Positions 6,240 through 61,513 of a stretch of 64,000 nucleotides of DNA are shown here, in pieces; position 1 is the stretch's first letter, and the number at the start of each line of letters is the position of its first letter. The DNA is taken from positions 1,550,001 to 1,614,000 of the forward strand of contig CP051229.1 of NCBI GenBank assembly GCA_017792365.1, read 5' to 3'. Origin of the DNA: Hyphomonas sp. (lineage in GTDB: Bacteria; Pseudomonadota; Alphaproteobacteria; Caulobacterales; Hyphomonadaceae). The notes beneath the pieces were generated by a model. It was not told the DNA's origin. It searched no databases and saw only the letters and a program-made list of their open reading frames with translations. Position numbers and translations under genes: made by a program.

Positions 6240-6397
6240 GATTGATCCTCCAGCATCCCGCTCAGGGAAGCGTTATCCCACAAGCACGCCTCTATAGCGG
6301 TAGAAACGTCCCGCTGGCCAGACGCCCGGCCTCACAGTTCCTACAAACCCGCATAACCTGCAGCGCTCAGATGGCACGCTGCTTGCGGTCGCAAAAT

Positions 6398-6474
6398 TGG
6401 GGAGTGGCGCAGCCTGTAAGCGCGTCCGCCTTGGGGGCGGAAGGTCGCTGGTTCAAATCCAGCCTCCCCGACCG
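6398..6474 (+). tRNA. tRNA-Pro (anticodon TGG), atypical D-loop
   Basis: Cloverleaf folded by hand: acceptor TGGGGAG/CTCCCCG (first pair T-G), D-stem GCGC, anticodon stem TCCGC/GCGGA with loop CTTGGGG (anticodon TGG), T-arm GCTGG-TTCAAAT-CCAGC, discriminator A at 6471. The next three bases are CCG, so CCA is not encoded. The D-loop reads CCTGTAAG where tRNA-Pro normally has CCTGGTAG, so the G19 that pairs with C56 is replaced. It could be a functional variant, a degenerate second copy, or a base-call error. Confidence 0.85.
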
Positions 6475-45324: not shown

Positions 45325-46248
45325 CTACCGCAAATAGTTCAACAGCGTCAGGTTCCGGATCGTATTGAACACGTTGGCCGACGCCTCATAGGCGAACTGG
45401 GCCTGGTTCAAGCGGACGGCCACTTCGGCAAGGTCAACGTTGACGATCTCGCCAATCGCCCCGTTGAGCGACTCCATCCGCGCCTGCTGCCTGTCAGTCG
45501 CCGCATCGACGTCATGGAGCATCCTGCCATTCTCCGACTGGGCGTCGAGAATCTTGTCGAACGCGGCGTCGAGGTTGGCCAGTTCGGCTTCCAGAGCAGC
45601 TTTCTGGGGCAGGGTCAGCTCGCCGCCAAACGGGCCAAGCGCGCCTTCGTCCACCTCGGCCAGACGTTTGATCGCCGCCAGCGCGTCGGTGATGATGTCA
45701 TCCGCAACAAGGCCCGCTCGAACCGTGCGGTTCTCCTCGATGCGCAGCACCTGCGATTCCGCATTCTGCTCGATCGCGGTGTTGAGCGGATTGGCGGCCA
45801 GATCGGAAACGCTGTTGACCGTCACCGGCGGCCTGTCGTTCAGCACGCCGCCAAAAAGGTAACGACCGCCGATCGTGGTGTTCATCGCATCCTTGAGAAC
45901 GGAAAACGCCTGCTCGATCTGTGACCGCACGCCCTCACCGCGCTCGAGCCCGATGTTCTGGAACAGGTCCTCGCGCAATTGCGAAACGATGTCGGCGGCT
46001 CGACCGATCGCCACATCCTGCAGCTCCATCCGCGTCCTCAGCTCGCGCGACGTCGCAAGAAACCCCTCGGTCCGCGCAACAAGCCGCTCGGCCGACACAA
46101 GCGTCTGAGCCTCACGGCCATAGCCCTTGAGGTCTTCCGCCTTGGTCTGCGCGGAACTCTGGCGCGCGGCCTCAACCAGCGCACGCTGGGACTTCCCAAG
46201 GTCCGCAAGCGCGGACATCGGTATCATCGCTGAGGAAACTCTATCCAT
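45325..46248 (-). CDS. flgL: Flagellar hook-associated protein FlgL-like (flagellin family)
   Basis: 307 aa. Flagellin-type coiled-coil ends: N-terminal SSAMIPMSALADLGKSQRALVEAARQSSAQTKAEDLKGYG and C-terminal VNVDLAEVAVRLNQAQFAYEASANVFNTIRNLTLLNYLR, with the LFGG sequence (GGRYLFGG) typical of FlgL. As hook-filament junction protein it is exported by the flagellar type III machine. It follows flgK by 13 bp on the minus strand, the usual order. Confidence 0.9.
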   Translation of the reverse strand: MDRVSSAMIPMSALADLGKSQRALVEAARQSSAQTKAEDLKGYGREAQTLVSAERLVARTEGFLATSRELRTRMELQDVAIGRAADIVSQLREDLFQNIGLERGEGVRSQIEQAFSVLKDAMNTTIGGRYLFGGVLNDRPPVTVNSVSDLAANPLNTAIEQNAESQVLRIEENRTVRAGLVADDIITDALAAIKRLAEVDEGALGPFGGELTLPQKAALEAELANLDAAFDKILDAQSENGRMLHDVDAATDRQQARMESLNGAIGEIVNVDLAEVAVRLNQAQFAYEASANVFNTIRNLTLLNYLR

Positions 46249-46261
46249 AGCGTGGTCCTCC

Positions 46262-48376
46262 TCAGACCATGTTCAGCACGATATCGTAAAGATCCCGCGC
46301 GGCGCTGATCATGCGCGAGGCCGCCGCATAGGCCTGCTGGTAGGTCGTCATCTTGACGAGTTCCTCATCCAGATTGACCCCTTCTTCGCCAAGGCGGCGC
46401 TGGCGAACTTCCTCGCGAACCGACTCTGCGGCGACAGCAGCGGACTCCAGCGCCTCAGCGCGCAACGCAGCGTGCCCGGAAAGCCGCGCCGCATAGTCGA
46501 TAATGGAAGCCGCCTGCCCGACCACGCCGCCAGCATCCTGGAACTGCACCAGCGCGGTACCCGCTGCCTCAAGCGCCAGCGCGCCGCGGCCATCGCCGGG
46601 CGACAGGACCCGCGTCCCGACAGCCGCGCCGGCCAGATCGGCCTTCGCCGTGGAGATCAGGTTTGGGTTGGCGAGGATCGTGTTCTTGATCTGGAGGTTT
46701 TCAGAACGCTGTGCCGGCGCCACTTCGCCGACGCCGAAGAAATCGGAAAACGAAACGTTCGTCGCGCCCCGCTGCGTCGTATCTTCCAGCACATCGATGC
46801 GGCTGACGCTGCCAGCGACCGGCGCCAGGCGGACACGGCCATTGGCGTCGATCGAAGCAGAACCATAGCCCGAAAGCTGTGTGTTGATCGCGTTGAGAAG
46901 GTCTGTGACCGATCCGCCAGCTGTGACGTTCACCGTGGCCTGGCGGATAACCCCGCCATTGCTGTCACGCACCGCCAGACGCAGCGTGCCCGCGCCAAAC
47001 CCATGCGCGTCGCCGCCCTGCAACCCTGTCGCATAACTCGTCGGCTTGGACTTGGTGATCAGATCATTCAGCCCGAAGGTCTGCGCAAATCCACGTCCGA
47101 GCCGCGATGCCGGACTGGTGGGATCGTCAGCCACTACCACGCCGCGCCCGCCGGCCGCGCTTATCGACAGCGAGCCATTGGCGAACGCCGCAGCGCCATC
47201 GCCGTTTGCAGCGAGCCTTGTATTCAACGCAGTTTGGAAATCGCCGATCGAGTTGGCGAAAGCCGTGACGCCGCCAAGATCGTCCGTGACGGTGCCTGCC
47301 CCGAAGTCGATCCGGTAGTTGCGGGTTATCTGCCCGTCCGCATCGACAATCGCCAGATTGCTGGCGCCGGTGAAGCGCAGCGCGTCGCCCGCCAGCAGGC
47401 CTGTGTTCCGTCCGACAAGCGAGGTTGGCGCAGGAACCGCGGATCCGGCGTTGTGAGCATCGTTGATCGCATCGACCACGCCCGCGGCGAATTCTCCGAA
47501 CGCCAGGCCGAGATTGACGAGCTCCTGATCCCGCGCGCGCATGAGACCCAGAAGTTCGCCGCCGCGCATGTGCGAGGCCATCGGCGTTTCTGTGGTGGAG
47601 TTCGGCTGCATGATGACGATGCCGGGGTATGCCGAACCCGAGTTGGCGGAAGAGTATCCAAACCGCGCCGCCTCGACGTCCACCAGCAGAAGTCCGTCGC
47701 CAGTCCGCACCTCAACACCGCCCAGCGAGCGCCCGGCGGTACGGATGTCGACAATCTCCGCCAGACGGTCGAGCAGCCGCGATTGTTCCGTTTCAGACTC
47801 AGCTGAACTGACGCCCGCTATACGCGCCCGCTGGATCGAGCCGTTGAGCTTGGCGATATTGCTCATCAGGGCGTTCGCTTCTTCCATGAGCGAGTAGCCC
47901 TGCCGGTGCGCCTCCGTACGTAGCTCCGAAATTTCGTTCTGCGTGGTGTCGAGCTGCGACAGCATCGTCTGCAGTTCTGACAGCGCCGAGCTGCGACGCA
48001 GCGAAGAAGACGGATCGACCGAAAGCGCCCCGAACGACTGCATGACCGGGTCGATCGTGGCAAAAACCGACCCGCGCTCCGACGGGTCGCCGAAAAGCCC
48101 CTGGGCACGATCGATATACCGCGAAAGGATCTCGGCGGCGGACACGTCGCCTGCGCCGCGCATCTCGGCCGCGGCGAGGTAGGCGTTCGCGACGCGCTGG
48201 ATGTCGATATCGACGCCGGACACGCCTCCGCCGGACTGCCGCGTGACGAAGTGGACGTCCTTGCGCGAATAGCCCTCGGTGTTGACGTTCGCGACATTGC
48301 TCGACGTCGCCGCCAGCGCCTGCTGGTTGGCCATCAGGGCGGAGAGCCCGGTACCCATGATGCTGTTGATGCTCAA
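46262..48376 (-). CDS. flgK: Flagellar hook-associated protein FlgK
   Basis: 704 aa. The N-terminus INSIMGTGLSALMANQQALAATSSNVANVNTEGYSRKDV is the conserved FlgK/rod-hook motif, and the C-terminus EEGVNLDEELVKMTTYQQAYAAASRMISAARDLYDIVLNMV matches the FlgK heptad region. The start is a TTG at 48376 with GGAG eight bases upstream. The protein forms the hook-filament junction with FlgL and is secreted by the flagellar export gate. Its 5' leader contains two adjacent palindromes. Confidence 0.94.
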   Translation of the reverse strand: MSINSIMGTGLSALMANQQALAATSSNVANVNTEGYSRKDVHFVTRQSGGGVSGVDIDIQRVANAYLAAAEMRGAGDVSAAEILSRYIDRAQGLFGDPSERGSVFATIDPVMQSFGALSVDPSSSLRRSSALSELQTMLSQLDTTQNEISELRTEAHRQGYSLMEEANALMSNIAKLNGSIQRARIAGVSSAESETEQSRLLDRLAEIVDIRTAGRSLGGVEVRTGDGLLLVDVEAARFGYSSANSGSAYPGIVIMQPNSTTETPMASHMRGGELLGLMRARDQELVNLGLAFGEFAAGVVDAINDAHNAGSAVPAPTSLVGRNTGLLAGDALRFTGASNLAIVDADGQITRNYRIDFGAGTVTDDLGGVTAFANSIGDFQTALNTRLAANGDGAAAFANGSLSISAAGGRGVVVADDPTSPASRLGRGFAQTFGLNDLITKSKPTSYATGLQGGDAHGFGAGTLRLAVRDSNGGVIRQATVNVTAGGSVTDLLNAINTQLSGYGSASIDANGRVRLAPVAGSVSRIDVLEDTTQRGATNVSFSDFFGVGEVAPAQRSENLQIKNTILANPNLISTAKADLAGAAVGTRVLSPGDGRGALALEAAGTALVQFQDAGGVVGQAASIIDYAARLSGHAALRAEALESAAVAAESVREEVRQRRLGEEGVNLDEELVKMTTYQQAYAAASRMISAARDLYDIVLNMV

Positions 48377-48398
48377 GGTCGCATCTCCAATCGCAACC

Positions 48399-48429
48399 AG
48401 GCAGAATCTGCCTGCTCGTCATGACGAGC
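48399..48429. repeat. Tandem palindromes in the flgK leader
   Basis: AGGCAGAATCTGCCT (48399-48413, 7-bp arms, 1-nt centre) followed immediately by the perfect 16-bp palindrome GCTCGTCATGACGAGC (48414-48429). They lie 23 to 53 bp upstream of the flgK TTG start and could be an operator pair or RNA hairpins in the leader. Confidence 0.6.
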
Positions 48430-48654
48430 CTAGGCGCCGACGCCTTCCAGTTCGTGGAGGATTCGCGGAAAATCCGCGCAATCGCGCTTCTGCGCCTATA
48501 ATGAGCATCAGCCTCCCGGCCGCACTTGGTCGTTAACCAAGCAAGCAGCGGGCCAGATGCATCGCGTCTCCCCCACCGCCAACGCGTATTGAAAAGACTG
48601 ACGTTTCCCCAGCTTCAGGAACTGCAAGTCCCACCCGTCACGAGCCTTAGGCGC

Positions 48655-48688
48655 GGGCAAGTATTGCCCACCACAGCGCAAACCTTGC
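48655..48688. promoter_or_regulatory. Candidate FlbD (ftr-type) enhancer sites
   Basis: GGGCAA-GTA-TTGCCC (48655-48669) and GCAA-ACC-TTGC (48678-48688). Both share the GCAA-N3-TTGC core, and their centres are 21 bp apart, two helical turns. They lie about 70 to 100 bp before the -24/-12 promoter of fliK, the usual distance for a sigma-54 activator. Assignment to FlbD is inference from flbD 8 kb downstream. Confidence 0.5.
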
Positions 48689-48754
48689 CGGGCCAGAACA
48701 CAGGTCCAGAACGCCAAGCACCTGAATTCGCGAGACAAATTACGGTAAACCCGC

Positions 48755-48770
48755 TGGCCTGCAGGTTGCA
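48755..48770 (+). promoter_or_regulatory. Sigma-54 promoter of fliK-flgD-flgE
   Basis: TGGCCTGCAGGTTGCA matches TGGCAC-N5-TTGCW with the GG and GC pairs exactly 10 bp apart. The expected transcription start is about 12 bp downstream of the GC, roughly 35 bp before the fliK ATG. In Caulobacter, hook genes are sigma-54 and FlbD dependent. Confidence 0.65.
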
Positions 48771-48814
48771 GGCTCCTTCCGATGCGGACAGTTCCGCCCA
48801 CACGGAAGTAGATT

Positions 48815-50302
48815 ATGCCGGCTGGCGATACTCCAATCCGAGGCTTTGAAGTCTTCACGCAGCGCGTGTCGAACGAGAGCTCGCGCCACGATACTGACGA
48901 CGCGGATCGCCGTGAGTTCGCAGCGCTCGTCGATGACGCCCGAAACACAGGCGCGCCGCAACCGACAGATGCGCGCCAGTCCCGGAAGCCGGGCTCGCAA
49001 CCCGCTGACCAACCTTCGCCTTCACCAACCGCCCCGAAGGAACTGGCGTCATCCGACGCTCCGGAAATCCCGCCCACTGAGGCCACCGCGACGCCACAGG
49101 AGACGGGTCAGGCGAATCCTGCCGTCCCCGCCCCAACGGTGGCCACTCCCCAGAACAAGCCCGCCCCTCTCCTCACTCACCTGCTGACCCAGCTTCAGCA
49201 ACACACTCCCGAAGCGCAGCCAGCCGCCCCAGCAAGCCAGCAGGCCATCGCACCGGCCGCTGTTGCGGAACAACCCGTCGTTGCCCCGCTGCTCGCGACC
49301 GAAATCGCGCAGCCAGCTCAGGCGAACACCGCCACAACGACGGCGCCAGTGGATCCCGCAGCGCCTCAACAGCCAGAGACCGCCGCAGCATTGACCGGTA
49401 ATCCGGCGGCAGCGGCGAACGCGCTCGCCGGTGCGCCAAAACAGCTGGCGCCCACCACGCCCGCAACGCCGACAGCCGGCGACACACCCCAAACGGCTCA
49501 ACCCTCACCCACCGTCCCGCCCGCGCCGGAGGCAGGCCCCGGCGCCAACCGCCTGGCGGCAAGCCTCAACGCGCAAGCGCCGGCAATCGAAGCTGGCGGC
49601 GCGGCCAATCCCGGCTCGCAGAACCAGACGCAGTCGCAGGCCGGAACCACTCAGCAACCGGCGGCTCCCGCATCAGCCGCAAATGGCGCAGCGGCGCAGA
49701 AGCCCGCCAGCATCGGCGCGCCAGTCGTCGACGCCGCTTCGCCGGTCTCTCAGAGCGCAACCACCCAAGGCTCGGTTCTCTCAATCTCATCAACAACGCC
49801 GGCGACCGGCGCGACCGCCAGCCAGGCAACCTCCGCACCCTCCACGCCAACGCCCCCGCCAGCTCTCGCCGGCGCGTCACCAGCCGTGGTCCAAGTCTAC
49901 TCGCGGATGGTCGAACGTTTCGACGGCAAGGCCCAGCAATTCCAGATCCGCCTCGACCCGCCTGAGCTTGGCCGGGTCAATGTACGCATTGAGATCGGAG
50001 CCGATCACCGCGTCCACGCCGTCCTCGCTGCTCATGACAGCAACGCGCTTGCAGACCTGATGCGCGGCCAGCGCGCACTGGAACAGTCACTGGCCAATGC
50101 CGGCATCGACCTTTCCGAAGAGGGCATTCGTTTCGAACTGAGCGATCAGAATACCAACCAGTCGTCACGCGGCGATCAGGACGCTGCGCCCGAAAAACGC
50201 ACCCTACCTTGGATGCTGGACGCCGACACATCCGCTGCCGTCGAACAGGCAGTTGCACAGCAATCGCGTTGGTCCCGCTCGCGCATTAACGTCGTGGCCT
50301 AA
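48815..50302 (+). CDS. fliK: Flagellar hook-length control protein FliK
   Basis: 495 aa. The N-terminal half is a very long Ala/Pro/Gln-rich, low-complexity region (about 60-340), the molecular ruler part. The conserved C-terminal switch domain reads QFQIRLDPPELGRVNVRIEIGADHRVHAVLAAHDSNALADLMRGQRALEQSLANAGIDLSEEGI, the Flg_hook family signature. It measures hook length and switches export specificity through FlhB. It starts the rightward fliK-flgD-flgE unit behind a sigma-54 promoter; flgD begins 9 bp after the stop. Confidence 0.92.
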   Translation: MPAGDTPIRGFEVFTQRVSNESSRHDTDDADRREFAALVDDARNTGAPQPTDARQSRKPGSQPADQPSPSPTAPKELASSDAPEIPPTEATATPQETGQANPAVPAPTVATPQNKPAPLLTHLLTQLQQHTPEAQPAAPASQQAIAPAAVAEQPVVAPLLATEIAQPAQANTATTTAPVDPAAPQQPETAAALTGNPAAAANALAGAPKQLAPTTPATPTAGDTPQTAQPSPTVPPAPEAGPGANRLAASLNAQAPAIEAGGAANPGSQNQTQSQAGTTQQPAAPASAANGAAAQKPASIGAPVVDAASPVSQSATTQGSVLSISSTTPATGATASQATSAPSTPTPPPALAGASPAVVQVYSRMVERFDGKAQQFQIRLDPPELGRVNVRIEIGADHRVHAVLAAHDSNALADLMRGQRALEQSLANAGIDLSEEGIRFELSDQNTNQSSRGDQDAAPEKRTLPWMLDADTSAAVEQAVAQQSRWSRSRINVVA

Positions 50303-50311
50303 GGTGACATC

Positions 50312-50977
50312 ATGACGGATCTCGTCTCATTCGTACCGCCGGCGACCAGCACGGGACAAAGCGCAGCGGCGTCCGCATCCACGCTTGCCGACAATTTCGA
50401 CACCTTCCTGACAATCCTCACGGCCCAGATCCAGAACCAAGACCCGCTCGAACCGCTGGACTCCACGCAGTTCACCGAACAGCTGGTGCAGTTCTCCGGC
50501 GTCGAGCAACAGATCCGCACCAACCAGTCCATGGAAGCCCTGATCGCTGCGACCCGCGCCAACGCCGGCGCGTCGCTCTCGGGCTATCTCGGCTCGACTG
50601 CGGAGGTCGACGCATCCGGCGCAGCCTTCAACGGCGAGCCTATCAATTGGCGATTTGCGCTGCCCCGCGACGCACAAAGCTCGCGCATCACTGTGACCAA
50701 TGCGGATGGCGACGTCCTTTATTCGCAGGACGCGCCAAAGACAGCCGGCGCACACGATTTTGTCTGGAACGGCCAGCTCACAGGCGGCGCCACCGCGCCT
50801 CCCGGACCCTACTATCTCAATGTCGTCGCAAGCGATGGGGAGAACGAGCGCATCGAGGTCGACCACTCCGTGATGGCGCACATCACGGGCATCGACCTCA
50901 CGCACGGCGAACCCGCGCTGACGACATCGAACGGCGTCTACGCGTACTCAGACATCCGGCGCTTCGTCAGCAACTAG
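50312..50977 (+). CDS. flgD: Flagellar hook assembly protein FlgD
   Basis: 221 aa. The N-terminal scaffolding motif is DNFDTFLTILTAQIQNQDPLEPLDSTQFTEQLVQFSGVEQQI, diagnostic of FlgD, followed by FlgD Ig-like/Tudor parts (ITVTNADGDVLYSQDAPKTAGAHDFVWNGQ). FlgD caps the growing hook and is needed for FlgE assembly. The ATG follows the fliK stop by 9 bp with AAGGTGACATC in between; flgE follows after 91 bp. Confidence 0.94.
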   Translation: MTDLVSFVPPATSTGQSAAASASTLADNFDTFLTILTAQIQNQDPLEPLDSTQFTEQLVQFSGVEQQIRTNQSMEALIAATRANAGASLSGYLGSTAEVDASGAAFNGEPINWRFALPRDAQSSRITVTNADGDVLYSQDAPKTAGAHDFVWNGQLTGGATAPPGPYYLNVVASDGENERIEVDHSVMAHITGIDLTHGEPALTTSNGVYAYSDIRRFVSN

Positions 50978-51068: not shown

Positions 51069-52430
51069 ATGAGTATCACATCCGCAATGCTCGCCGGCGC
51101 CGCCGGCATGCGCGCCAACTCGAGCACGCTGTCGGCGATCTCGGACAACATCGCCAATGTGAATACCGTCGGATACAAGCGGATCCGTACCGATTTCACC
51201 GCGGCCCTGTCGTCCCAGAACCAGCTGACGACGCACAGCGCCGGCGGTGTCCTGTCCAATCACTCGCACATGATGTTCGAACAGGGTTCCCCGGTCGCCT
51301 CCTCCGTGTCCACCCACCTTGCGATCCAAGGGCCTGGCTTCTTCGTTGTGCGCTCACGCAGCGACGACGCCGGACCATCGGACCCCTACCTCTACTCCCG
51401 CGCCGGCCAGTTCAAGCCTGACGAGGATGGCTACTTGAGATCGGTATCCGGTCATTACCTGCATGGTTGGCGCGTCCAGGACGACGGAACTGTCACCGCC
51501 AACCCGACTGATCTTGCCGCTCTTGAGCCGATCCAGGTCGCGGGGATCGCAGGCAACGCCGAAGCATCCACGCGCCTGTCGATCTCCGCCAACCTGCAAT
51601 CCTCGCAGGCGATCTCTCCGGCTGCCGGGACCTATAACGTCGACACAAACAACATGGCGTCCGGGGCGGTCACGCCTGACTTCGAACTGCCGCTGCAGGT
51701 TTATGACAGCCAGGGCGGCCTTCACACGCTCACGATTGGTTTCCTGAAAACTGCGGCAAACACCTGGGCGACCGAGGTCTACCTTCCCGATTCTGAAGTG
51801 ATCGCAGGCGGCGGCCTGGCCAACGGCCAGCTCGGCAGGGGCAATTTGGTCTTCACCGCCTTTGGTCAACTCGACACCGGCGCGTCCACCCTGCCAACAG
51901 CAGTGACGATCAACGCCAATGGCACAGCCGGCGCGCCGCAATGGGAAGCCGACCAGGGCGTCGCCACGCAGACGGTCCAGCTTCAGTTCGGCCCCATCAA
52001 CGGCCAGGGCGGACTGACGAGTTTCGATGCGCCTTCGGTGCTCGGCACCTCAACGGTGAATGGGACGCCCTTCGGCGCCCTCGCCTCGGTCGATGTCAAC
52101 GACGAAGGCTTCGTCACCGCGATCTTCACCAACGGACTGACGCGCCAGATGTACCAGATCCCGCTCGCGACCTTCCCCAACTATGATGCGCTTGCGCCCA
52201 CCGATGGCGGCGTCTTCAGGCTCGCCCCCGGCACAGGCCAGTTGGCCATGCGCGCAGCCGGCGCTGCAGGTACAGGTGAAATCACGGCGAGAGCGCTGGA
52301 AGGCTCCACCGTCGACCTCGCGGAGGAGTTTTCCAACCTGATCCTCACGCAGCGGGCCTATTCCGCGTCGTCAAAAATTATCACCACCGCCGACGAAATG
52401 CTCGACGAGCTGATCCGTCTGAAACGCTAG
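51069..52430 (+). CDS. flgE: Flagellar hook protein FlgE
   Basis: 453 aa. The N-terminal rod-hook motif is MLAGAAGMRANSSTLSAISDNIANVNTVGYKRIRTDF, and the C-terminal one is GSTVDLAEEFSNLILTQRAYSASSKIITTADEMLDELIRLKR. A FlgE-specific HLAIQGPGFFVVR occurs near residue 80. It polymerises to form the hook. The ATG follows GGGAGTAGCATCC. A hairpin with a T-run ends the unit (52471-52506). Confidence 0.95.
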   Translation: MSITSAMLAGAAGMRANSSTLSAISDNIANVNTVGYKRIRTDFTAALSSQNQLTTHSAGGVLSNHSHMMFEQGSPVASSVSTHLAIQGPGFFVVRSRSDDAGPSDPYLYSRAGQFKPDEDGYLRSVSGHYLHGWRVQDDGTVTANPTDLAALEPIQVAGIAGNAEASTRLSISANLQSSQAISPAAGTYNVDTNNMASGAVTPDFELPLQVYDSQGGLHTLTIGFLKTAANTWATEVYLPDSEVIAGGGLANGQLGRGNLVFTAFGQLDTGASTLPTAVTINANGTAGAPQWEADQGVATQTVQLQFGPINGQGGLTSFDAPSVLGTSTVNGTPFGALASVDVNDEGFVTAIFTNGLTRQMYQIPLATFPNYDALAPTDGGVFRLAPGTGQLAMRAAGAAGTGEITARALEGSTVDLAEEFSNLILTQRAYSASSKIITTADEMLDELIRLKR

Positions 52431-52506: not shown

Positions 52507-52673
52507 CGCGTTTCCGGCCGTATTTTCGGCCCGCAGGACAGGCCCCGCTAAGGTCGACAAGGCCGCAAACAATTCGACGAATTTTGCGAGAAAGCGCGCA
52601 GCGCCGCTCAGCGCGACCTTAAATTGCGTCCCGTATGTTCGGTCCCAATCGAGCAAGAGCAAAGGGATCGATT

Positions 52674-52943
52674 ATGCTTACCCAGGAAACGCTCCGACCG
52701 ACCGTCGTCGGTCCGGATGGGCGGAAACTCACGCTGGCCGACCTGCCCAAGCCGGGCATTCAGCGTTGGGTGACGCGCCGCAAGGCCGAAGTCGTCGCCG
52801 CCGTGCGGGGGGAGCTGCTGACGCGTGAAGATGCGTGCCGCCGGTATGATATCTCCGACGAGGAGTTTCAGGGCTGGGAGCGCCTGTTCGATCGCCACGG
52901 CGTGAAGGGACTGCGCACGACGCGCCTCCAGAACTACCGCTAG
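52674..52943 (+). CDS. sciP: CtrA inhibitor SciP (DUF1153)
   Basis: 89 aa. The whole protein is the DUF1153 domain: VVGPDGRKLTLADLPKPGIQRWVTRRKAEVVAAVRGELLTREDACRRYDISDEEFQGWERLFDRHGVKGLRTTRLQNYR, a Trp-containing winged-type helix-turn-helix. In Caulobacter, SciP accumulates in G1 swarmer cells, binds CtrA at promoters, and blocks transcription of CtrA targets including flagellar genes. Its position between the flgE and fliF units is the same as in Caulobacter. The ATG 52674 follows AAAGGGATCGATT; a GTG at 52635 would lengthen it without family support. Confidence 0.93.
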   Translation: MLTQETLRPTVVGPDGRKLTLADLPKPGIQRWVTRRKAEVVAAVRGELLTREDACRRYDISDEEFQGWERLFDRHGVKGLRTTRLQNYR

Positions 52944-53049: not shown

Positions 53050-53065
53050 TTAAGTCGTCGTTTAC
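53050..53065 (+). promoter_or_regulatory. CtrA-like box before fliF
   Basis: TTAA-GTCGTCG-TTTAC: matches the CtrA consensus TTAA-N7-TTAAC with one mismatch in the second half. It lies 60 bp upstream of the fliF start. In Caulobacter, the fliF operon is a class II, CtrA-activated unit, which fits. Confidence 0.5.
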
Positions 53066-53074
53066 GCTGCACAG

Positions 53075-53116
53075 GGAAATTCCTGCCTACCTGCAAATCA
53101 GCAGGCAGAAATTTCC
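53075..53116 (+). promoter_or_regulatory. Stem-loop in the fliF leader
   Basis: GGAAATT (53075-53081) pairs with AATTTCC (53110-53116). Inside, two CTGC blocks (53083-53086 and 53091-53094) pair with two GCAG blocks (53101-53108), leaving a 4-nt bulge CTAC and loop AAATCA. It ends 9 nt before the fliF ATG, so it could affect ribosome access. Confidence 0.55.
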
Positions 53117-57001: not shown

Positions 57002-58375
57002 ATGCGCGTTCTGATCGTCGGAACCCTCCAGGGACAATTGTCCAACGCCACGAAGATCGCCTTCGAGCGCGGCGCCAAGGTCGTCCACGCAGACACGGCC
57101 GCCGTTGCGCTCGAACTACTGCGTGCAGGTAAAGGCGCCGATCTGCTTCTTGTCGACGTCAACGAAGACATCTCAGGTCTCTGCGTCGCGATGAAGTCGG
57201 AGCGCATCGTCGTCCCGCTCGTCGCCTGCGGCGTCATGGCGACGCCCGAAATCGCAGCCGCCGCCATCCGCGCCGGCGCCCGCGAATTCATCCCTCTGCC
57301 GCCCGATCCGGAACTCATCGCCGCCGTCCTCGCTGCGGTTGCCGACGACGACCGCCCGATGATCGCCACCGATCCGTCCATGGTGGCGGTGAAATCATTC
57401 GCAGAGAAGGTCGCGCCGTCGGAAGCCTCGGTGCTAATCACCGGCGAAAGCGGCGTCGGCAAGGAAGTGATGGCGCGCTTCATCCACGCCAATTCCGCGC
57501 GCGCCGACAAGCCGTACATATCCGTGAACTGCGCCGCCATCCCCGAGAACCTGCTCGAAAGCGAGCTCTTCGGTCACGAGAAGGGCGCTTTCACAGGCGC
57601 AGTCTCGCGCCGTATCGGCAAGTTCGAGGAAGCCAACGGCGGCACGCTGCTGCTCGATGAAATCTCCGAGATGGACATCCGCCTGCAGGCCAAACTCCTG
57701 CGCGCCATTCAGGAACGCGAGATCGATCGCGTCGGCGGCGGCAAGCCGGTGCCGGTCGACATCCGCATCATCGCCACCACGAACCGCAACCTCAACGAAG
57801 CGGTCACCGCCGGCGAGTTCCGCGGCGACCTGCTCTATCGCCTCAATGTCGTGAACCTCCACATCCCGCCGCTGCGCGAGCGAGCACGCGATATCATCGC
57901 CCTGTCGACCTACTTCATCGACAAGTATTCGACCGCCAACGGCTTCAACCCGCGCCGCATCTCGAACGAGGCCCGCGAAGCCATCCAGAATGCGCCATGG
58001 CCTGGCAACGTCCGCGAACTCGAGAACGCAATGCACCGCGCCGTCATCCTCGCCCAGGGCGAGGAGATCCAGGCCGACGACCTGCGCTCGCCAGATGGCC
58101 GGCGCGTTACCGAAAGTGCCTTCGACGCACGCGCCGGCCATGCGGTCGCCGCGGCCGAAGGCGCACTGGGCCTCTCAGGCGTGCGCGTCGGGCAGACGGT
58201 CGCCGAAGTGGAACAGGAACTGATCCTCTCAACGCTGGATCACTGCCTCGGCAACCGGACTCACGCCGCCAACATTCTCGGCATCTCGATCCGCACCCTG
58301 CGCAACAAGCTGCGCGCCTACTCCGACGCCGGCGTCGACATCGCCGCTCCCGGCGAAACCAGAGCAGCAGGATAG
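57002..58375 (+). CDS. flbD: Sigma-54-dependent flagellar regulator FlbD
   Basis: 457 aa. The receiver-like N-terminus (1-120) keeps Asp52 (LLLVDVNED) but lacks the acidic pair (LIVGT instead of LIVDD) and the conserved Lys (FIPLPPDP), so it is degenerate, in line with FlbD activation by FliX rather than by phosphorylation. The AAA+ domain has Walker [15 protein letters not shown] (sigma-54 contact), Walker [11 protein letters not shown] and the arginine-finger region. The C-terminal Fis-type helix-turn-helix is [36 protein letters not shown]. It should activate late genes such as fliK-flgD-flgE. GGAGGAG lies before its ATG. Confidence 0.95.
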
Positions 58376-58381
58376 ACCTGA

Positions 58382-60483
58382 ATGGCGCAGTCAGCGGCAA
58401 TTCCAGGCGGATCGTTCAACCTGAACAACTTCGCGCGGCATCTGGCAAAGGGCGAATACGCCCTTGGCGCCGGCGTGATCGCGCTGGTGATCATGCTGAT
58501 CATCCCGATCCCCGCCTTCCTGCTCGACTTCCTGCTCGCCATCTCGATCACGCTCTCCGTGCTGATCCTGATGACGGCGCTGCTGATCAAGAAACCGCTT
58601 GAGTTCTCGGCCTTCCCCACGGTCCTCCTGCTGGCGACCCTGCTGCGGCTCGCGCTGAACATCGCCACGACACGCCTGATCCTGTCGAATGGACACACCG
58701 GGCCCGACGCAGCCGGCAACATCATTCAGGCCTTCGGCGGCTTCGTGATGCAGAACAATTACGTCATCGGCGTCGTCGTCTTCATCATCCTGGTGATCGT
58801 CAACTTCGTCGTCATCACCAAGGGCTCGGGCCGTATCGCCGAAGTCGCCGCCCGCTTCACCCTGGACGCCATGCCCGGCAAGCAGATGGCGATCGACGCA
58901 GACCTCTCCGCCGGAATGATCACCGAGGACGAAGCCAAGGCCCGCCGCAAGGAACTTGAAGGCGAAAGCAATTTCTACGGCGCCATGGACGGCGCATCCA
59001 AATTCGTCCGCGGCGACGCCATGGCCGGCATCCTGATCACGCTGATCAACATCATTGGCGGCCTCACGATCGGCGTCGCGCAGGAAGGCCTCGCCTTCGA
59101 AACCGCAGCGAACTCCTACACCACACTCACCGTCGGCGACGGCATCGTCTCGCAGATCCCCGCCCTGATCGTTTCGGTTGCGGCCGGTATGCTGGTGTCC
59201 AAGGCGGGCGTCGAAGGCGCAACCAACCAGGCGCTCGGCACGCAGCTGTTCACCAACCCCCGCGGTCTCGCCATGGCCGCCGCTGCGGCCGCATTCGCCG
59301 GTCTTCTCCCCGGCATGCCGATCATCCCCTTCGCCTTGCTGGCAGGCATTGCTGGCTACGGCGCCTATCGCGGCTGGAAGCGTCAGGAGAGGGAGGAAGT
59401 CGAGAAAGCCGCCGCCGTGCGCAAGCAGGAACAGGCGGTCAAACCGAAGGAACAGCCAATCTCCGAAAGCCTGGCTGTGGATGAACTCAAGATCGAGCTC
59501 GGCTTCGGCCTCCTCGGCTTCATCAACGAAACGGCCGGACGCAAGCTCACCGACCAGGTCAAGGCGGTCCGCCGCCAGATCGCGACGGAATACGGCTTCA
59601 TCGTTCCGCAGGTGCGCATCATCGACAACGTCGAGCTGGGCAACGACGAATATCGCATCCTGATCAAGGAAGTGGTCGCCGGCCGCGGCATCCTGCGCCC
59701 CGCCCAGCACCTCGCGATGGAGATGTCCGGCGACAACTCAACGCTTGTGGGCGAACGAGTCAATGAACCGGTATTCGGTCTCCCGGCCGTTTGGATCGAC
59801 GGCGAATCCCGTGAGAACGCGCTCGTCGCTGGCTACACCGTGGTCGACGCGGCAACCGTCCTCACCACCCACTTCACCGAGCTCGTGAAAGAGAACATGG
59901 CCGAGCTGCTTTCGTTCGCCAGCGTCAAGGCCCTGATCGAGGAACTGCCCAAACCGCAGGCCTCCCTGGTCGACGACATCACGCCCAACCAGATCACGCT
60001 GTCCGGTATCCAGCGCGTCCTGCAGAACCTGCTGCGCGAACGCATCTCCGTGCGTGACTTCCCCACTATTCTCGAAGCGATCGCCGAAGCCACCGCCAGC
60101 TCCACCGACCTGCTCGCCGTCACCGAACACGTCCGCCAGCGCCTCGCTCGCCAGCTCTGCAATGCAAACGCCGACCCCAGCGACACGCTCTGCGTCCTGC
60201 CGCTGTCGGCGCACTGGGAGGAAACCTTCGCCAACTCTCTCATTGGCCAGGGCCCCGAGCGTCAGTTCGCACTCGATCCGTCAAAGCTTCAGGATTTCGT
60301 CCGTGACCTGCGGCGGGCGTTCGAAAGCGCCGGACAATCCGGCGACACGCCGGTCCTGCTCACCTCCGCTCCCATCCGCCCCTACGTGCGCTCGCTCGTC
60401 GAACGCTTCCGCCCACAAACCACAGTCATGTCTCAGAACGAGATTCACCGAAGGCCCGCCTGCGCTCCGCCGGCGCGGTCTGA
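58382..60483 (+). CDS. flhA: Flagellar export gate protein FlhA (frameshift at C-terminus)
   Basis: About 700 aa when repaired. The eight-helix export domain begins GVIALVIMLIIPIPAFLLDFLLAISITLSVLILM and includes FPTVLLLATLLRLALNIATTRLIL; the cytoplasmic domain includes ERVNEPVFGLPAVWID and PQTTVMSQNEIH. Family members end SQNEIHP-x-ARL-x-x-x-G-x-(V/I). Here CACCGAAG at 60446-60453 needs one more C to give HPKARLRSAGAV followed by the TGA at 60481. Without it the frame runs on through the next gene to 61513, an artefact. The protein is the core of the type III export gate. Confidence 0.9.
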
Positions 60484-60506
60484 GTCCACGCAAGAAGGTA
60501 GCTGCC

Positions 60507-61513
60507 ATGAAAATGAAAATGTTCGCAGCCCCTACCGAGGAAGAGGCGCTCGCCCTCGTCCGGGAGGAACTGGGACCGGACGCAGTCATCCTGTCGACCT
60601 ACGACGACGAGAATGGCCGCGTCGAAGTCCGGGCCGCCGTCGAACGCGTCTTCAGCCACCGCTTCGCGCCGCCACAGGGCGAGACAGTCCGGCCCTTCTT
60701 CAACCAGATGTCAGACATCCGCGCCGAGCAGCGGCAGGACACGATGCGCGACGGCCTGAGTGCGGCGCTGCACGCCAAGGGAGCGCCCGACGCCTTCATT
60801 CATCTCGTCGCCCGGGGGCGCGAAGATGGGCCCAGCCTCGAACGCCGGGCGCCCTGTCGGCTGGCCTCGAAGGCGCGCTCACCTTCGCGCCGATCCAGCC
60901 GGGCGTCGATCGCTCGCTGCTGCTGATCGGCCCTCACGGCTCCGGAAAGACGACGGCGACTGCAAAACTCAGCCTCCAGTTCGCCCATAGTGATTCGCCC
61001 ATGCCGGCCCTCTCCGCCGACCTCGACGTTAACGGCCAGGCCGCCCGGCTCGCCGCCCTGATGAGGGCTCCTCGCGTCGCGGCCATGTTTTCCCCAGATT
61101 CCTTGTTCAAAACAGTCCGTCAGAGACAGGACGAAGGCGAACGCCTGCTCATCGACGGCCCGAGCTTCAATGCCGCCAGCGATCAGGACATGATGCGCCT
61201 TAAGGCATTGATTTCATGTATGGAAGTCGAGCCCGTACTGGTGATCTCGGCGTCGGCTCACCCGCTCGACCTGGAGGACGACGCCCGCGCCTACGCCCAG
61301 TGCGGCGTACGTCGCGTAATCGTGACCGGTCTGGACGCCGTAAGACGCCCAGGCGCCGCAATCGCAGCAATTTCTTCAGCTCGGTTAAGCATCGCTCAAC
61401 TAGGTATGGGGCCTAGTATGGCCAGCGGACTAGCGCCCGCTTCGGCCGAACGCATAGCCCGCCTGCTGTTGGACGGGCAGCCGGAGACGGAATTGCTCAA
61501 GGGAGCCGCATAG
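60507..61513 (+). CDS. flhF: FlhF-like SRP GTPase (frameshifted, degenerate GTPase motifs)
   Basis: About 335 aa when repaired. The N-terminus is MKMKMFAAPTEEEALALVREELGPDAVILSTYDD, typical of FlhF, in frame 3 to about 60845. The rest is in frame 2 (GALSAGLEGALTFAPIQPGVDRSLLLIG...); one extra G in CGGGC at 60846-60850 joins them. The P-loop GPHGSGKTTATAK is intact, but the G3 motif reads LIDGPS (normally DTAG) and G4 reads VTGLD (normally TKLD). FlhF places the flagellum at the pole. Whether this one hydrolyses GTP is doubtful. flhG starts right after its stop. Confidence 0.85.

Follow-up and report, generated by a model that had tools for sequence, protein, structure and literature searches.

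Two flagellar units lie back to back in the window, i.e. the whole stretch of 64,000 nucleotides analysed here (the genome comprises 3.4 Mb in one contig), and the question is which promoters and which regulator serve them. Positions 48377-48814 very probably represent a shared control region between the divergent units flgK-flgL and fliK-flgD-flgE, namely a bidirectional region under FlbD and sigma-54 that is conserved and of the Caulobacter type. The original prediction had seen here a complete sigma-54/FlbD region for fliK-flgD-flgE. The type of region is supported by conservation, by a matrix scan, by the presence of RpoN and FliX and by the association with FlbD, and the fliK promoter element does exist, but the description was not complete: fliK-flgD-flgE is not the only unit served, and the flgK-flgL promoter (48540-48555) as well as a site in the flgK leader (48400-48412) had been missed. 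The genes concerned are:

46262-48376, minus strand: flgK, which opens the divergent unit and starts with TTG (PF22638, PF00460, PF06429)
45325-46248, minus strand: flgL-like gene (PF00700 and PF06429, both barely over the cut-off), named by its position beside flgK
48815-50302, plus strand: fliK (PF02120)
50312-50977, plus strand: flgD (PF03963, PF13860)
51069-52430, plus strand: flgE (PF07559, PF06429, PF00460)

On the plus strand flgE is followed by a SciP-like gene, fliF, fliG, a fliN-like gene, flbD and an flhA-type gene. The SciP-like gene (DUF1153) is located at 52635-52943, between flgE and fliF; SciP is the CtrA inhibitor of Caulobacter. A single ORF of 1043 amino acids (58382-61513) combines an FlhA (FHIPEP) domain (residues 36-690) with an SRP54-type GTPase domain (846-1030), so that it looks as if flhA and flhF were fused.

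Elements of the -24/-12 type with the GG-N10-GC spacing precede hook or late flagellar genes on both strands; the start sites given with them are predicted from the -12 elements:

48755-48770, plus strand: TGGCCTGCAGGTTGCA, -24/-12 promoter serving fliK-flgD-flgE, with a predicted start close to 48781
48540-48555, minus strand: TGGCCCGCTGCTTGCT, divergent -24/-12 promoter serving flgK-flgL, with a predicted start close to 48529

The fliK element had been described correctly as TGGC-N7-TTGCA with GG and GC ten nucleotides apart (48756-48757 and 48768-48769). It is the sole exact match to this pattern in the window, where 19 matches with at most one mismatch compare with a chance mean of 15. Sites and promoters were scored with a matrix trained without the window on 112 sites and 86 promoters from other species, the 43 loci of which overlap those counted below. 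The fliK element reaches 15.8 bits, the second-best plus-strand match in 100 kb, and the flgK element is stronger with 23.4 bits, the top minus-strand match. Measured against the RpoN motif given for Caulobacter in PMC4287350 (GGCNC-N4-CTTGC), the fliK element has two mismatches and the flgK element none. The sequence GGTTAAC, found right after the -12 of the flgK promoter (minus strand, just downstream of 48540), is common to close relatives. The top plus-strand match in the 100 kb is another strong sigma-54-like element (6372-6387, 20.4 bits), which stops 10 bp short of a tRNA-Pro gene (6398-6473).

Between flgK and fliK three ftr-like sites (sites of FlbD type, no strand assigned) can be found:

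48656-48668: ftr-like site B, GGCAAGTATTGCC, 17.9 bits, second-best match in 100 kb
48677-48689: weaker ftr-like site C, CGCAAACCTTGCC, 11.5 bits
48400-48412: GGCAGAATCTGCC, ftr-like site A within the leader of flgK, 18.6 bits, top match in 100 kb

The cores of B and C, GCAAGTATTGC (48657-48667, centre 48662) and GCAAACCTTGC (48678-48688, centre 48683), are the two GCAA-N3-TTGC palindromes with centres 21 bp apart that had been noticed before. They are the only two in the window. It is their adjacency that is special and not their number, because the chance mean is 0.97 and two or more occur in 27 of 100 shuffles. Site B is positioned at about -119 from the predicted fliK start and about -133 from the predicted flgK start, site C at about -98 and -154, so that dyad sites of FlbD type are present at enhancer distance, as judged by a motif derived from relatives rather than from measured FlbD sites. 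Site A (centre 48406) lies at about +123, i.e. downstream of the predicted start of the divergent unit; by its sequence alone this putative FlbD site is indistinguishable from a post-transcriptional element. An IHF site at the promoter is named as a feature in titles by Gober & Shapiro; here the best IHF match in the region has two mismatches to the consensus and is not put forward as a site.

The site motif, as read from the sequences, would be GGCAR-N3-YTGCC with the core GGCA-N5-TGCC. The motif GGGCAA-N3-TTGCCC proposed earlier is too narrow: it misses the GGCA...TGCC extension and occurs at one genomic site, in this region. As a regulon predictor it was rejected together with its shorter form, the longer motif finding only itself and GCAA-N3-TTGC finding 40 sites genome-wide against 36 for the reversed pattern. 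GGCA-N5-TGCC alone occurs at 49 sites against 74 for the reversed pattern, from which nothing is drawn because the reversed control is made of CpG-bearing arms. Counted by reading, 20 of the 49 have the R-N3-Y form, and four of these 20 are flagellar. Among the other 16, 13 lie inside ORFs according to a simple third-position GC rule and three outside (666513, 1069897, 1939716). Four of the 16 score at least 18, and therefore the matrix alone does not separate the flagellar sites.

The combination of site and promoter is more selective. GGCA-N5-TGCC at 80-110 bp from TGGC-N7-TTG gives four matches in 3.4 Mb and none for the reversed control. Two of them start from site B, one towards the fliK and one towards the flgK promoter, and one lies before a flagellin gene, so that three of four are flagellar; the fourth (2823607-2823714) falls mid-locus within a long ORF, an ABC permease by eye. 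That the -24/-12 and palindrome matches arose by chance is hardly credible in view of this composite search (4 vs 0) and of the conservation across species, even if neither pattern alone is clearly enriched in window or genome (for TGGC-N7-TTGC 183 matches genome-wide vs 158 for the control). In this genome GGCAR-N3-YTGCC at about 100 bp from TGGC-N7-TTGC picks out flagellar promoters and can replace the motif that found only itself.

A matrix scan of the 100 kb around the region ranks site A first and site B second. In the 50 kb of the second flagellar cluster, whose gene names, FliX excepted, were read from translations, the best match (2709024, 22.0 bits) lies before the flagellin gene, with a second site 19 bp on (15.3 bits); the promoter element TGGCACGACGCTTGAA is at 2709144, and the FlbD-type sites start 101 and 120 bp upstream of it. 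The second-best match (2730175, 19.7 bits) lies before flgF and is placed 147 bp upstream of it because the flgF-like reading starts at 2730027; by the third-position GC rule this site is also inside an ORF, and the matrix scan of this cluster gave no clear -24/-12 element ahead of flgF. The widened motif occurs before the flagellin gene and flgF, and a half-degenerate form of it before fliF. Matches off flagellar promoters are 78415 (16.2 bits) and 8550 (15.5) in the first region and 2727575 (17.1, within an ORF) in the second.

Relatives were found with FlgE, and the named ones include Hyphomonadaceae, Hirschia, Ponticaulis, Maricaulis and Robiginitomaculum. A divergent flgK is present upstream of flgE in 59 of 80 named loci. 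The remaining 21 comprise 16 with less than 2 kb upstream of flgE; in L076, L082, L083, L086 and L088 no divergent flgK was found despite more than 2 kb. In 51 of the 59 loci the flgK strand carries an exact TGGC-N7-TTGC at a distance of 60-320 bp from the start of flgK; on the fliK strand one is present 250-1000 bp from that start in 55. Divergent flgK and fliK were obtained from 57 of the 80 loci, and together with the window 44 of 58 regions had both exact promoters and were used for the site counts. These 44 are 43 loci plus the window; owing to the relatedness of the loci, the counts do not represent independent events. L018 (4.7 kb between flgK and fliK) and L087 (1.5 kb) were retained, and L133, L134 and L136 are taken as the same genomes as L035, L033 and L031 and not as extra evidence.

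Between the two promoters GGCA-N5-TGCC with at most one mismatch is present in 40 of the 44 regions (shuffles: mean 6.9, max 13) and the exact form in 12 (mean 0.5, max 3). In the flgK leader the motif is present in 41 regions if one mismatch is allowed (mean 5.2, max 10); the exact form is there in 31 (mean 0.25, max 2), which makes this the best-conserved site. A second upstream site of at least 8 bits could be found in 31 of the 44 regions, window included. The two are 20-24 bp apart in 23 of these and 21 bp apart in 14; therefore the same-face spacing, which the original prediction had pointed out for B and C, is a common feature. The palindrome itself is not: of 57 loci only L070 has an exact GCAA-N3-TTGC at the homologous upstream position, and where it occurs 62 bp from the flgK start (11 loci, mostly Maricaulis) it is the leader site. 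In L138 and L139, from another family of the order, sites are picked up by the matrix at all three places, i.e. upstream of fliK, within the leader of flgK and ahead of fliF.

The strong conservation of the leader site (exact in 31 of 44), together with the Caulobacter precedent of downstream ftr elements known from a title, gives some room to an arrangement in which B and C serve the fliK operon alone, with the leader site driving flgK. We consider this possible but rather doubtful, because the distances of B and C from the two promoters (-133/-154 and -119/-98) are usual ones for enhancers and the composite pattern is matched either way. One pair acting on both units is the arrangement we prefer.

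The candidate for the regulator is encoded in the same cluster:

57002-58375, plus strand: flbD, sigma-54 activator with an AAA+ domain carrying GAFTGA, a Fis-type HTH and a receiver-like N-terminus

RpoN and FliX are encoded by one gene each in the genome, which thus harbours FlbD (with GAFTGA), RpoN and FliX. GAFTGA is found in 63 of 67 FlbD homologues, window included, and the HTH (residues 414-437) has an identity of at least 0.91 in the 67 homologues. The N-terminal domain is below the Response_reg cut-off; it reads IVGTLQG where receivers usually have the first acidic pair, and an aspartate near residue 52 is kept. According to PMC3096577 and PMC7064773 Caulobacter FlbD is controlled by FliX and not by a cognate kinase, while PMC6180460 mentions phosphorylation by an unknown kinase.

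In order to see how motif and regulator are distributed we used 200 genomes of the order, counting FlbD as present if a homologue at E <= 1e-100 (a threshold of our choice) was found, which applies to 122; composite matches were counted irrespective of flagellar position and not inspected one by one. A looser composite (75-105 bp, TTGC) is present in 120 of 200 genomes (reversed control: 14), i.e. in 103 of the 122 with FlbD vs 17 of the 78 without (Fisher p 6e-19, relatedness not corrected), leaving 19 genomes with FlbD and 61 without it that lack the composite. The stricter one (GGCAR-N3-YTGCC, 80-110 bp) is present in 93 (reversed control: 7), in 84 of 122 vs nine of 78 (p 4e-16, again not corrected for relatedness), with 38 and 69 lacking it. 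At least four of the 103 (G007, G166, G181, G186) rest only on the recurring GGCAGCAGATGCC, which by eye looks like conserved coding sequence. Among the 19 FlbD genomes without an exact looser composite, G100 has mismatched sites, and in G165 an exact site stands at 107 bp, too far from the promoter for the range of that search. In the family of the analysed genome (f1) a close FlbD is found in only five of 41 sampled genomes, and most other f1 genomes, of the genera g2 and g3, keep a distant FlgD; this pattern suggests that the flagellar system has been replaced or rewired.

FlbD binding is predicted here from sequence, and another sigma-54 activator, NtrC-, NtrX- or TacA-like, might bind the sites instead; Caulobacter encodes four such proteins (PMC10274813). 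We judge this improbable: the motif with its promoter goes with the presence of FlbD, it recurs at flagellar genes, FlbD is encoded in the same cluster, and no NtrC-type dyad was found, the best NtrC-type match in the region having three mismatches to the consensus. Counting against the FlbD/sigma-54 reading are the weak site C and the two mismatches of the fliK promoter. Our confidence in it is also slightly lowered because some composite matches in other genomes look coding and flgF has no clear promoter element.

Further candidate sites precede fliF (no strand assigned):

53104-53116: half-degenerate ftr-like site, GGCAGAAATTTCC, 14.1 bits, just upstream of the likely fliF ATG (53125)
53075-53087: second half-degenerate ftr-like site, GGAAATTCCTGCC, 9.6 bits

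A CtrA-like sequence, TTAAGTCGTCGTTTA, lies before fliF at 53050-53064 (CtrA motif TTAA-N7-TTAA in PMC4287350). The best CtrA match in the flgK-fliK region has three mismatches to the consensus, and no CtrA site is put forward there. The 250 bp ahead of fliF, whose start was extrapolated by homology, were scanned in 75 loci plus the window: the best matrix match scores at least 12 bits in 51 of these 76 regions (1% of mononucleotide shuffles) and at least 14 bits in 21 of 76 (0.5% of shuffles); the matrix gives no site in these 250 bp in L085 and L086. The best fliF site has one GGAA and one GGCA half in 52 of the 75 loci, GGCA in both halves in 15, and belongs to neither class in eight. Elsewhere a single GGAA half is seen in two of 43 loci between the divergent promoters and in none of 43 in the flgK leader, where 29 of 43 have GGCA in both halves; the upstream fliK sites are symmetric in 11 of 43 only.

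This asymmetry is possibly a new detail, and no paper on it appears among the literature matches listed, which is no proof of absence. It would provide a simple handle on how one regulator activates one gene class and represses another. Tentatively, FlbD sites might exist in two conserved grades with a weaker operator built in at fliF. If so, FlbD would activate the hook genes first and shut off the early genes only once more FlbD has accumulated, a timing device common to related species, with one enhancer pair driving two divergent operons simultaneously. Several observations speak against it: imperfect sites are frequent among the activating fliK sites as well, many loci are from close relatives, and the GGAA could be fixed because it overlaps the promoter or leader of fliF.

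From these elements we infer the following course of events. Sigma-54 RNA polymerase would wait in the closed state at both -24/-12 elements until the early flagellar parts have been assembled. FlbD, which FliX would hold back or release, would then bind the GGCAR-N3-YTGCC sites and occupy the pair some 100-150 bp ahead of the two promoters as well as the one in the flgK leader. Its AAA+ ring would form and open both promoters by looping, and from the degenerate sites near the fliF start FlbD probably turns fliF down.

Among known systems, fla2 of Rhodobacter sphaeroides resembles the locus in having divergent flagellar promoters with shared regulator sites, but it differs in using CtrA and in that none of the four RpoN is involved (PMC6180460). 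That paper states that flbD is absent in the Rhodobacteraceae it shows. FlbD binding sites are the subject of a paper by Fumeaux et al., cited in PMC12421884; no paper on FlbD sites in this bacterial group is among the literature matches listed, which does not prove that there is none. In Caulobacter the ftr sites are where FlbD acts: from them it activates middle and late genes, and at ftr4 it is a repressor of fliF (PMC3930126). The FlbD-type sites near the fliF start are the likeness to ftr4; here, however, both have one half of the form GGAA/TTCC and their function is predicted.

The closest comparison is with flaN-flbG of Caulobacter crescentus, which we take to correspond to flgK and the fliK-flgD-flgE unit. 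There too divergent flagellar units have sigma-54-type promoters and FlbD-type sites, also downstream of the start, and fliX and rpoN are present. A sigma-54 promoter and the downstream elements ftr2 and ftr3 for the divergent flaN and flbG are named in the title of Mullin & Newton 1993. In contrast, only one clear leader site is seen here. With this comparison, control regions of the Caulobacter type are extended to a Hyphomonadaceae-like genome as well as to many other Alphaproteobacteria, in dozens of which both promoters and sites are again present at this gene junction. The region looks like a well-conserved but ordinary example of this known switch and not like one new in kind.
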